This document shows, one piece after another, positions 15,306 to 57,463 of a stretch of DNA of 64,000 nt (positions are counted from its first letter, which is position 1; every line of letters starts with the position of its first letter). The stretch is from positions 4,898,001 to 4,962,000 of the forward strand of contig NZ_BBWW01000001.1 of assembly GCF_001485215.1 (NCBI RefSeq). Reading direction: 5' to 3'. This DNA is from Leptolyngbya sp. NIES-2104 (GTDB lineage: Bacteria; Cyanobacteriota; Cyanobacteriia; Leptolyngbyales; Leptolyngbyaceae). Under the pieces are notes generated by a model. That model was not told the DNA's origin. It worked only from the letters and a program-made list of their open reading frames with translations, and made no database searches. The translations under genes were made by a program, and so were the position numbers.

Positions 15306-16790
15306 TCACAGATGTTCGGATAATTTGATGATTTCTTCGATGCGATCGCGAATAATTTTTCCCTGAGCCGTTCGCGGAATTTGGTTGACTTTGATCCAGC
15401 GCTTCGGATGTTTGAAGGAGGCGAGACGCGATCGCAGTTCGGTTTTAATCTGGTCGATCGTAATCGTTTCTTCACCCGGCACAAAAATCGCTGTAACGCT
15501 TTGCCCCCAGACTGGATCGAGCGTTCCTAAAACGTGAATATCTTGAATTAAATTAGTCGATCGTACTGCTGCTTCAACTTCGGACGGGAAAATATTTTCA
15601 CCACCGCTGATGATTTTATTGCTGGCGCGTCCGATTAGGTGCAGGAATTGTCGATCGTCAAAATAGCCCAAGTCATCGGGATCAAACGTCGGCTCAGGTA
15701 AAAAATTTGGATAGTAACCAAGCATGAGTGATTTTGCTTGAATCCTCAGTTTTTGATTGGCGATCCGGGACGGATCAGCTTTGCTGCACGTAATCTCCGC
15801 ATGAGGCAGAACGCGCCCACAGCCTTCGATGCCGCTCAAGAAATCCGCAGGTTTGAGGGTGGCAATTTGAGAAGCGGTTTCCGTCATGCCGTAGGTTGGG
15901 GCGATCGGTAAGTTTCTCGATCGAGCCTCTTCAAGCAAATCAGACCACGCAGGCGCACCCCCTAACAAGATTGTTTTGAATTTCGCTAACCAATCCGCAT
16001 GATTCATCAATTGTTGTAGTTGAGTCGGAACCAGCGAAATGAAAAAGTCTTGAGGATCGAATTGAGTGTCTAAGGTTTTCCAGGATTGCGTGATGAATCT
16101 GCCATCGGTGAGGAACGATCGCATAAATTGCATCAGACCGCTGACGTGATAGAGCGGCAGAACACAGTAGGAATGAATGCGATCGGTTTCAAAATATTGG
16201 CGAAATCCTTGCACAGATGCGCTGAGTGTTTCCCAATTGTGCATGGCAAATCGAACGTTTCCCGATGTGCCACCTGTTGGAATCATGATCAAATTTGAAG
16301 CGAACAGATGACTACTGAGGTTCTGTGAAATTCTCCGCTCTAGTTCATCTTCAGTCCCCTTCAGTGGACTTCGCACTGTTAGCCCCGAATTCCATTCCGG
16401 GGCGGGTGAATGCGATAAACGATCCGTCTCAAACAACCCTGGAACCAATTCCAATGAACGATCGATCTCAAACAACCCCGGAACAGATTCCAACGAATGA
16501 TCGATCTCAAACAACCCCTCAGATTCACCCCAAACCAAACTCGGTTTAACGAACTCCAAAACCTGCCGCCACTCAGACCCACCCCAATCGGGATTACATA
16601 AAAACACATGACACGGAGCCGAACAAGCCGCAACAAATCCCGCCAAAAACTGAACCGGATCGCGATCGCACAACACAACATTCGGCTTCTCAAACTCCAA
16701 CACTTCCCGATACCGAAGTTTCGCCAACTTCACTAATCGATCGCGCTCAGCAAAATCAAACTTCGCTAACCGACTTAGAAGCTGTTCCAT
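15306..16790 (-). CDS. menE: 2-succinylbenzoate--CoA ligase
   Basis: MenE activates o-succinylbenzoate with ATP and CoA in phylloquinone synthesis. The 494-aa chain has the adenylate-forming P-loop MIPTGGTSGNVRF, the A5-type YGMTETAS, GYY...GDLGYFDD-like A7 and the C-terminal catalytic lysine in RTAQGKIIRD. The ATG at 16790 overlaps the menC end by 16 bp. Residues 92-124 are a 13-aa tandem repeat and residues about 128-148 are encoded by a genomic palindromic repeat. Both lie in the variable linker before the P-loop, so activity may be kept. The family identity is clear from its place after menC. Confidence 0.93.
   Translation of the reverse strand: MEQLLSRLAKFDFAERDRLVKLAKLRYREVLEFEKPNVVLCDRDPVQFLAGFVAACSAPCHVFLCNPDWGGSEWRQVLEFVKPSLVWGESEGLFEIDHSLESVPGLFEIDRSLELVPGLFETDRLSHSPAPEWNSGLTVRSPLKGTEDELERRISQNLSSHLFASNLIMIPTGGTSGNVRFAMHNWETLSASVQGFRQYFETDRIHSYCVLPLYHVSGLMQFMRSFLTDGRFITQSWKTLDTQFDPQDFFISLVPTQLQQLMNHADWLAKFKTILLGGAPAWSDLLEEARSRNLPIAPTYGMTETASQIATLKPADFLSGIEGCGRVLPHAEITCSKADPSRIANQKLRIQAKSLMLGYYPNFLPEPTFDPDDLGYFDDRQFLHLIGRASNKIISGGENIFPSEVEAAVRSTNLIQDIHVLGTLDPVWGQSVTAIFVPGEETITIDQIKTELRSRLASFKHPKRWIKVNQIPRTAQGKIIRDRIEEIIKLSEHL
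16350..16410 (+). repeat. Palindromic repeat copy B, in frame inside menE
   Basis: The + strand segment CTTCGCACTGTTAGCCCCGA and onward to CCGGGGCGGG matches the right half of copy A (3945-3980) and of copy F (62350-62390). It is read in the menE frame as APEWNSGLTVRSPLKG (about residues 130-145), without a stop or frameshift. Confidence 0.75.
16419..16517 (-). repeat. 39-bp tandem repeat inside menE
   Basis: The coding strand holds two full and one partial unit of 39 bp giving GLFEIDHSLESVP, GLFEIDRSLELVP and GLFETDR. The DNA units differ at only a few positions, so the duplication is recent. It adjoins the in-frame palindromic repeat. Confidence 0.85.
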
Positions 16791-56785: not shown

Positions 56786-57070
56786 TCAGTCCGCCCCGAA
56801 TTCCATTCCTATCGTGTGTACACAAGTCGATTGATCGGTCATCGCCGAAATCTTTCGCCCCCTAAATCCCCCACGAGTGGGGGACTAAGAGTAGAGCAGA
56901 TTACTCCAGTTAAAAGAATTGCTTCAATTCAAAGTCCCCCAGAATGGGGGATTTAGGGGGCAGAAGCCGCCTAAAACGAGGCGATTCAGACTTGTGTATA
57001 TACAATAGAAGTTCCATTCCGGGACGGGTAAGCAACGAAGCAAAGAGACGGATCAAACTCGCGTTAACTC
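56786..57070 (-). repeat. Palindromic repeat copy E, split by an insertion
   Basis: The outer parts match copy D in reverse: left GTCAGTCCGCCCCGAATTCC (56786-56809), right GGGACGGGTAAGCAACGAAG to CGCGTTAA (57021-57070). The centre is replaced by the MITE-like element at 56810. Confidence 0.75.
56810..57007. mobile_element. MITE-like element of about 198 bp
   Basis: The ends are inverted repeats: TATCGTGTGTACACAAGTC at 56810-56828 and GACTTGTGTATATACAATA at 56989-57007, matching at 16 of 19 positions. No coding frame is present. The interior is two opposed copies of the CCCCCTAAATC / AAAGTCCCCC repeat. TTCCATTCC lies directly left (56801-56809) and again at 57012-57020, so a 9-bp target duplication is possible, with 4 extra bases on the right. 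No matching transposase is in the window. Confidence 0.8.
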
Positions 57071-57073
57071 TAA

Positions 57074-57463
57074 CTATCGTTGTGCGACTTCTACAAACAG
57101 TTCATCATAGTCCTTAGCAAAATTCACCCGGACATCTGCGAACTCTCCAGGGCTAACCGCTTGACTCAGAACCGTCATTACTGTTCTTGCATAGGTCGCC
57201 GCTGCTTCAATATCAACGCCTCCTCTGTTAGCAACACGAGTGTAGAACTCTTCAATCTTGAAGTTGTCGCCCATTTGTCCTTCGCGTCCGCGTAGACAGT
57301 CTGCTAATTCTGCTGGAAGTTGCGCCGCTAAGTTACTGGCTTCATCACCCAGTAGTCTTTCGCGCACTGTTTCCAACACAGCTTTCGTGGCTTTGATCGC
57401 AGAATCGCGATCGCTAAATTGTCCCGAATCCTTTACTGATTTAATAAATTGATCGTAGTTCAT
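57074..57463 (-). CDS. DUF2267 domain protein
   Basis: The 129-aa all-helical soluble protein starts MNYDQFIKSVKDSGQFSDRD and continues with AVLETVRERLLGDEASNLAA and QLPAELADCLRGREG, the DUF2267 signature. Often found with stress or hydrolase-like genes in cyanobacteria; function unknown. It follows the release-factor-like gene by 76 bp. Confidence 0.88.
   Translation of the reverse strand: MNYDQFIKSVKDSGQFSDRDSAIKATKAVLETVRERLLGDEASNLAAQLPAELADCLRGREGQMGDNFKIEEFYTRVANRGGVDIEAAATYARTVMTVLSQAVSPGEFADVRVNFAKDYDELFVEVAQR

Follow-up and report, generated by a model that had tools for sequence, protein, structure and literature searches.

The window, as we call the whole 64,000-nucleotide stretch of Leptolyngbya sp. 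NIES-2104 DNA that was analysed, corresponds to C1:4898001-4962000 of a 6.39-Mb genome (G000). Towards its right end, a DUF2267 gene is followed by a terminator-like hairpin, and between the two lies a palindromic repeat that is split by a shorter element with inverted ends (Table 1). The original prediction held that this element separates the gene from its terminator, and comparison agrees: about 340 bp lie between stop codon and hairpin here, against 22 bp in genome G004, 29 bp in G003 and 25 bp in G001. The visible effect on the host is this longer, structured stretch between the gene and its terminator. No open reading frame of at least 80 amino acids overlaps the element. Rfam gave matches to two miRNA families and to PsrR1, three in total at 20-25.5 bits and each under its gathering score, and these were rejected as chance. 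Far from this locus, at window positions 16415-16519, there is a short tandem array with a period of 39 bases and about three copies.

Table 1 Features at the DUF2267 locus, in window positions.
Feature	Position	Strand	Description
DUF2267 gene	57074-57463	-	Pfam PF10025, 8.8e-34; stop at 57074; lies upstream of the insertion
Terminator-like hairpin	56733-56704	-	Probably serves the DUF2267 gene; pushed away from it by the insertions; 22-29 bp past the stop codon in G004, G003 and G001
Host palindromic repeat, split by the element	56789-57070		Own matter about 56789-56808 and 57020-57070; many places in the same genome match positions 50-120 of the joined empty site used as query
CCCC arm of host palindrome	56794-56797	+	Directly 5′ of the duplication; palindrome intact in 26/28 paralogues
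Target duplication, left copy	56798-56808	+	GAATTCCATTC, 11 bp
MITE-like element	56809-57008		200 bp; limits set by its 20-bp inverted ends and the duplication on either side; further copies in this genome and in relatives
Left terminal inverted repeat	56809-56828	+	CTATCGTGTGTACACAAGTC; resembles ends of the 1.48-kb IS
Inner unit, 156 bp	56829-56984		Also found without terminal repeats; abuts left terminal repeat, stops 4 bp before right one; matches query 24-179 at L003 and L007
First hairpin unit	56857-56886	+	GCCCCCTAAATCCCCCACGAGTGGGGGACT
Second hairpin unit, inverted	56930-56961	-	GCCCCCTAAATCCCCCATTCTGGGGGACTTTG
Right terminal inverted repeat	56989-57008	-	CTATTGTATATACACAAGTC when read on the minus strand
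Target duplication, right copy	57009-57019	+	AAGTTCCATTC; 9/11 identical to left copy
CGGG arm of host palindrome	57020-57023	+	Directly 3′ of the duplication

The element starts with CTATCGTGTGTACACAAGTC and finishes with GACTTGTGTATATACAATAG, and its inverted ends are identical at 17/20 bases. It had been described as about 198 bp long with imperfect 19-bp ends; the element and the imperfection are real, and the lengths become 200 bp and 20 bp once the base on each side that had been assigned to the host repeat is returned to the element. The host-repeat sequence reported on both sides is also present and is better read as an 11-bp target duplication, and the interval first outlined, 56786-57070, contains the element together with parts of the host repeat. 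Short, non-coding and bounded by terminal inverted repeats, the element has the form of a MITE. Because its two duplication copies agree at only 9/11 positions, it fails our scripted duplication rule and is absent from the 43 duplicated sites and the 28 CCC/GGG sites counted below; in the flank analysis of 108 elements, it falls among the 44 with neither direct nor inverted flanks. By the same imperfect match, the window copy is an old one.

The host palindrome can be written as CCCC-GAATTCCATTC-CGGG, with CCCC-GAATTCCATTC preceding the element and AAGTTCCATTC-CGGG following it. When the two sides are joined into an empty site, at least 64 matches are found in the same genome at E<=1, two of them being the window itself (40 of 184 first-look candidates were scored). 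In 26 of 28 sampled paralogues of the host repeat, the palindrome CCCCGAATT[C/T][C/T]ATTCCGGGG is uninterrupted, and the remaining two show single-base differences from it. At L191 (C1:1680478-1680678), an element occupies the same site of the same host-repeat family in the opposite orientation, and here the duplication, GGAATGGAATTC, is exact, measuring 12 bp if the terminal bases are counted as target and 10 bp otherwise. A further copy in the same genome, L190, has a 10-bp duplication, CATAGCTTTC.

Empty sites are also found at the orthologous position. Ten DUF2267 loci were compared and the stop codon was located in eight; only those of G004 and G003 are syntenic as far as the SOD gene, as read by eye, and both are without the host repeat and without the element. 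In G001, both are likewise absent after the DUF2267 gene, beside a different neighbour, and the loci of G006, G005 and G002, which have other neighbours, were left out. Since repeat and element are missing together, the relatives' loci do not show which came first; the nesting of the element within the repeat places the host repeat first and the element second. A palindromic repeat resembling the host repeat lies behind the DUF2267 gene of G007 as well (L239), in a different gene neighbourhood. The prediction of a MITE-like element inside a palindromic repeat is thus borne out by its ends, by further copies in this genome and in relatives, and by paralogous and orthologous empty sites. The imperfect match of the flanking TTCCATTCC repeats, and the many elements that have neither direct nor inverted flanks, would also suit an origin by rearrangement between adjacent host repeats, with no target duplication at all. 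We regard such an origin as highly improbable, given that the unlinked L191 has an exact duplication at this very site of the repeat and that nearly all paralogues show an uninterrupted palindrome. The 200-bp element is an insertion.

A search of the same genome with the end pattern led to a 1480-bp insertion sequence (IS) at C2:24539-26018, which has similar ends and an exact 12-bp duplication, GTCGCTATCAAC, so that the transposase with matching inverted repeats that had been suggested as a check does exist, with ends similar to those of the element. The first such search, at three mismatches, returned 16 matches against 11 for the reversed pattern, and its weak matches were therefore not used alone. 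The 434-amino-acid transposase encoded by this IS matches the IS4-family model NF033590 of NCBIfam (358.6 bits against a cut-off of 160) and the Tn5 transposase in the PDB (E 7.4e-33). The IS4 family is described, in the text of PMC2266710 available to us, by a DDE transposase, a Y(2)R(3)E(6)K motif, a D(60-110)D(100-150)E spacing and a duplication of about one helix turn. Residues Y290, R293, E297 and K304, together with D52, D156 and E297, are invariant in three related transposases (catalytic roles assigned by eye) and agree with both motif and spacing. The 56 duplications measured are 10 bp (24 cases), 11 bp (21), 12 bp (5), 9 bp (4), 8 bp (1) and 13 bp (1) long, so that 45/56 are of 10 or 11 bp, about one helix turn.

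Within the IS4 family, the IS50 subgroup is defined by ends of the form CW------Y---CA-A--W-, a size of 1350-1550 bp and a duplication of 8-9 bp (Table 1 of PMC2266710, from the available part of that paper). The end CTACCGTGTACACACAAGTC, compared with this table by eye, agrees at all seven stated positions, and the IS of the present group (from this genome, G012, L246 and L247) measure 1472-1486 bp, within the subgroup range. Their duplications are mostly 10-11 bp, not 8-9 bp, and for this reason we call the group 'IS50-like' and do not file it as a member of the subgroup. Two further IS copies in this genome belong to a relative that is 60% identical, one with a 10-bp duplication and the other without a clear one. 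As expected of a MITE, the element shares its ends with an autonomous partner: they resemble those of the IS in this genome, without full identity. The idea that the MITE is a simple internal deletion of the IS is unsupported, as five IS inspected by eye share no sequence with it past the 20-bp ends.

The same ends recur widely. Nearly identical ends bound 12 paired IS of 1483-1484 bp and two MITEs of 188 bp in Kovacikia minuta (G012). The protein alone led to 32 loci in named records, and a pair of ends passing the cut accompanies 22/32, with Nostoc, Calothrix and Fortiea among the hosts. Exact ends were found in 20 of 292 genomes sampled from the phylum, covering 13 of 116 genera; the reversed pattern did not occur among the matches listed for this sample. 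G001 and G003 are rich in MITEs, yet gave no transposase match at E<=1e-20, and the partner in these genomes may therefore have been lost, have diverged or be unassembled. Twenty further places in G001 yielded 11 loose end pairs, 6 of which passed a stricter cut into the flank, hairpin, spacing and core counts. Short contigs of G003 (C942, C532 and C690, for example) end about 80-250 bp past a copy of CTACCGTGTATACATAAGTC, as if the repeat had broken the assembly.

A first set of 80 end pairs was used to examine target choice. A direct duplication flanks 43/80 of them and is lacking in 37/80, under a rule that fires on 2/4000 random point pairs; among MITE-size pairs of this set, 30/65 have one. 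A CCC within 6 bp to the left of the duplication and a GGG within 6 bp to its right accompany 28 of the 43, where 0.09 would be expected (29807 control positions). This CCC/GGG rule was formed after the first sites had been inspected, and was fixed in advance for a second set drawn from other families, in which 40 regions were chosen among the matches listed and 10 had no end pair. The second set, which includes near-identical copies such as the 175-bp elements of G224, has a duplication in 18/30 paired elements, of 10-11 bp in 16/18, and the rule holds in 11/18 against 0.03 expected. The target counts took only elements with a duplication, leaving out 37/80 of the first set and 12/30 of the second. 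The bias is in register with the duplication, with C at 77, 77 and 84% at positions -4 to -2 and G at 79% at +2 to +4. Predicted hairpin energy lies within the best 5% of a site's own surroundings at 29/56 sites. For the ten IS in named records that have a duplication, 4 satisfy the CCC/GGG rule, and the hairpin energy of 6 ranks in the best 5%.

These figures could in principle arise with random insertion. Selection may have removed copies that fell into genes, leaving intergenic repeats enriched, and such survival in palindrome-rich cyanobacterial intergenic DNA would give an excess of palindromic sites; the controls came from the flanking DNA as a whole, with its genes, and an intergenic background may exceed the one measured. 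Survival alone would hardly raise 0.09 expected sites to 28/43, and C and G stand in register with the duplication, not merely close to it. We therefore consider random insertion unlikely, and infer that the target bias is due to the transposase rather than to selection.

A different pattern marks 8 of the 108 elements, whose flanks mirror each other up to the ends, perfectly or nearly so, without a direct duplication (L142 and L151 of G001; L177 and L179 of G004; L230 of G012; L278, L279 and L282). The longest such mirror, at L142, covers 30/30 bases. Two further elements of the 108 have inverted flanks and a direct duplication both. The rule used was passed by 0/6360 random point pairs and 0/1444 mirrored pairs, and by 0/30 elements of the second set. 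Such flanks would be accounted for if template switching or gene conversion had corrected an imperfect palindrome; a duplication-free insertion into a perfect palindrome, or a rearrangement, is a possible alternative.

The interior of the element is highly structured. Folded as single-stranded DNA, the element reaches -51.8 kcal/mol (z -11), and none of 200 shuffles does as well; CCCCCTAAATCCCCCA has four matches in the window at up to two mismatches and none in 100 shuffles. Both internal hairpin units recur elsewhere, many matches in the same genome covering the hairpin part alone. The hairpin core, CCCCCTAAATCCCCC (at up to three mismatches), lies inside 68 of 71 MITE-size elements; 7 of the 71 were picked for likeness to the window element and the rest through the end pattern or beside IS copies; 55 have it in both orientations, and L153, L234 and L235 lack it. 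It falls within 90 bp of 123/142 ends, at 48 or 49 bp in 100 of the 123, and this spacing is seen across MITE-size elements of G000, G001, G003, G004, G006, G011, G015 and G017. The seven spacers of G015 and G017 have just 23-43% similarity to those of G000, and still place the core at 46-48 bp. In the second set (L328-L367), the core stands at 27 or 47-48 bp in 18/60 ends and was not found in 42/60. From 27 to 48 bp is a step of 21 bp, or roughly two turns of the helix.

The suggestion that the hairpin repeats travel as cargo holds in part: it fits most MITE-size elements, and needs one amendment. At L003 (C1:319600-319756) and L007 (C1:2080220-2080376), the inner unit occurs without terminal repeats and with identical boundaries in both. 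These two loci suggest that the unit has its own boundary, which could be a neutral cause of the fixed core spacing; besides travelling as cargo, the unit is dispersed independently. Together with the occurrence of the core in many other places, this is what would be expected if the element were a REP/REPIN-like repeat, two inverted hairpins with machinery of their own, and the 20-bp ends merely part of a larger repeat. Nevertheless, the same ends bound differing interiors, including the coreless L153, L234 and L235; exact 10-bp duplications adjoin the 20-bp ends of L234 and L235; and similar ends bound the 1.48-kb transposase units. A REP-like identity for the whole element is accordingly quite improbable to us. 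A core-like stretch is found within 40 bp of 11/56 insertion sites, where 0.88 would be expected (5447 control windows), and the elements can therefore enter what they carry. In the same genome, L006, L013, L015, L016, L020 and L022 (and, less clearly, L011) have the same hairpin pair between other inverted ends, approximately TACCRAAT...ACAGATC. These ends start with TA and perhaps belong to a second MITE family, which we take to be possibly of IS630 type.

One name in use for the present IS group is ISSysp3, an IS4-family element annotated on plasmid pAQ7 of Picosynechococcus sp. PCC 7002 (L246). It is 1485 bp long, with ends CTACTGTGTACACACAAGTA and CTACTGTGTACACACAAGTG like those described here, a 10-bp duplication, CCCTCTAAAT, and a transposase 58% identical to that of the present genome. 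Unlike the window element, it is autonomous, and its site is not a hairpin (hairpin-energy percentile 0.93). With IS50/Tn5, the group shares a Tn5-homologous transposase, end positions, size and the YREK motif; it differs from the published IS50 subgroup in its mostly 10-11-bp duplications, against 8-9 bp, and in a marked palindrome preference.

A taste for palindromes has precedents. In the available text of PMC1525189, Tobes and Pareja link an IS4-family element to REP palindromes, into which ISRm22 and other IS had inserted, and state that palindromes are frequent among Tn5 sites, with GC pairs at either end of the duplication. Palindrome targeting is therefore already known in kind. ISRm22 resembles our case as an IS4-family element on the axis of palindromy of a repeat (PMC1525189); it is of another subgroup, having been assigned to IS4Sa (PMC2266710), and of another host, and the portion of PMC1525189 at hand mentions no MITE. 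In Coxiella, a palindrome within another small repeat, QMITE2, is likewise the target of a mobile element, IS1111, but there an IS invades a MITE whereas here the MITE is the invader (PMC10969869, in part). GTAG-15 REP dimers in long palindromes of Anabaena variabilis are also nested short repeats of a cyanobacterium, although the accessible part of PMC3733652 states no IS4 link. Nezha, too, is a cyanobacterial MITE, a likeness drawn from mentions in parts of PMC10969869 and PMC3733652 and not from sequence. A literature search that covered subscription journals thinly returned, in the texts available, no account of the present element or of ISSysp3, and none of the hairpin core from any bacterium. 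What is new here is the IS group, the host phylum and the strength of the palindrome preference.

We conclude, with a probability of roughly 0.85, that the window element is a non-autonomous MITE related to an IS4-family, IS50-like, palindrome-preferring IS group that includes ISSysp3 of Picosynechococcus, and that it was probably moved by the transposase of this group. Most likely, its 20-bp ends were recognized by a Tn5-like DDE transposase encoded by a full-length copy, which by cut-and-paste chemistry would have excised the element and inserted it at a target cut with a stagger of 10-11 bp. The group favours palindromic targets with a C-rich and a G-rich arm, approximately CCCN-[10-11 bp]-NGGG, and because of this preference the element would have come to lie in the centre of the host palindrome and L191 at the same position of another member. 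The interior is an inverted hairpin pair that also spreads on its own.

More tentatively, and as a conjecture we would not bet on, a widespread cyanobacterial group of IS50-like transposases may recognize cruciform-prone CCC-N-GGG palindromes, its MITEs carrying such hairpins at a near-fixed distance from their ends, so that copies create new targets and nest; replication or repair might then invert direct duplications and erase the usual mark of transposition. The inverted flanks, if they are converted duplications, would account for some insertions in which a duplication is seemingly absent. For cyanobacteria, a palindrome-favouring transposase with short derivatives that import new palindromes offers a mechanism for repeats within repeats. 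It also draws attention to naturally occurring IS50-like transposases, directly comparable with Tn5, whose duplication exceeds that of the published IS50 subgroup and whose target preference is clear.
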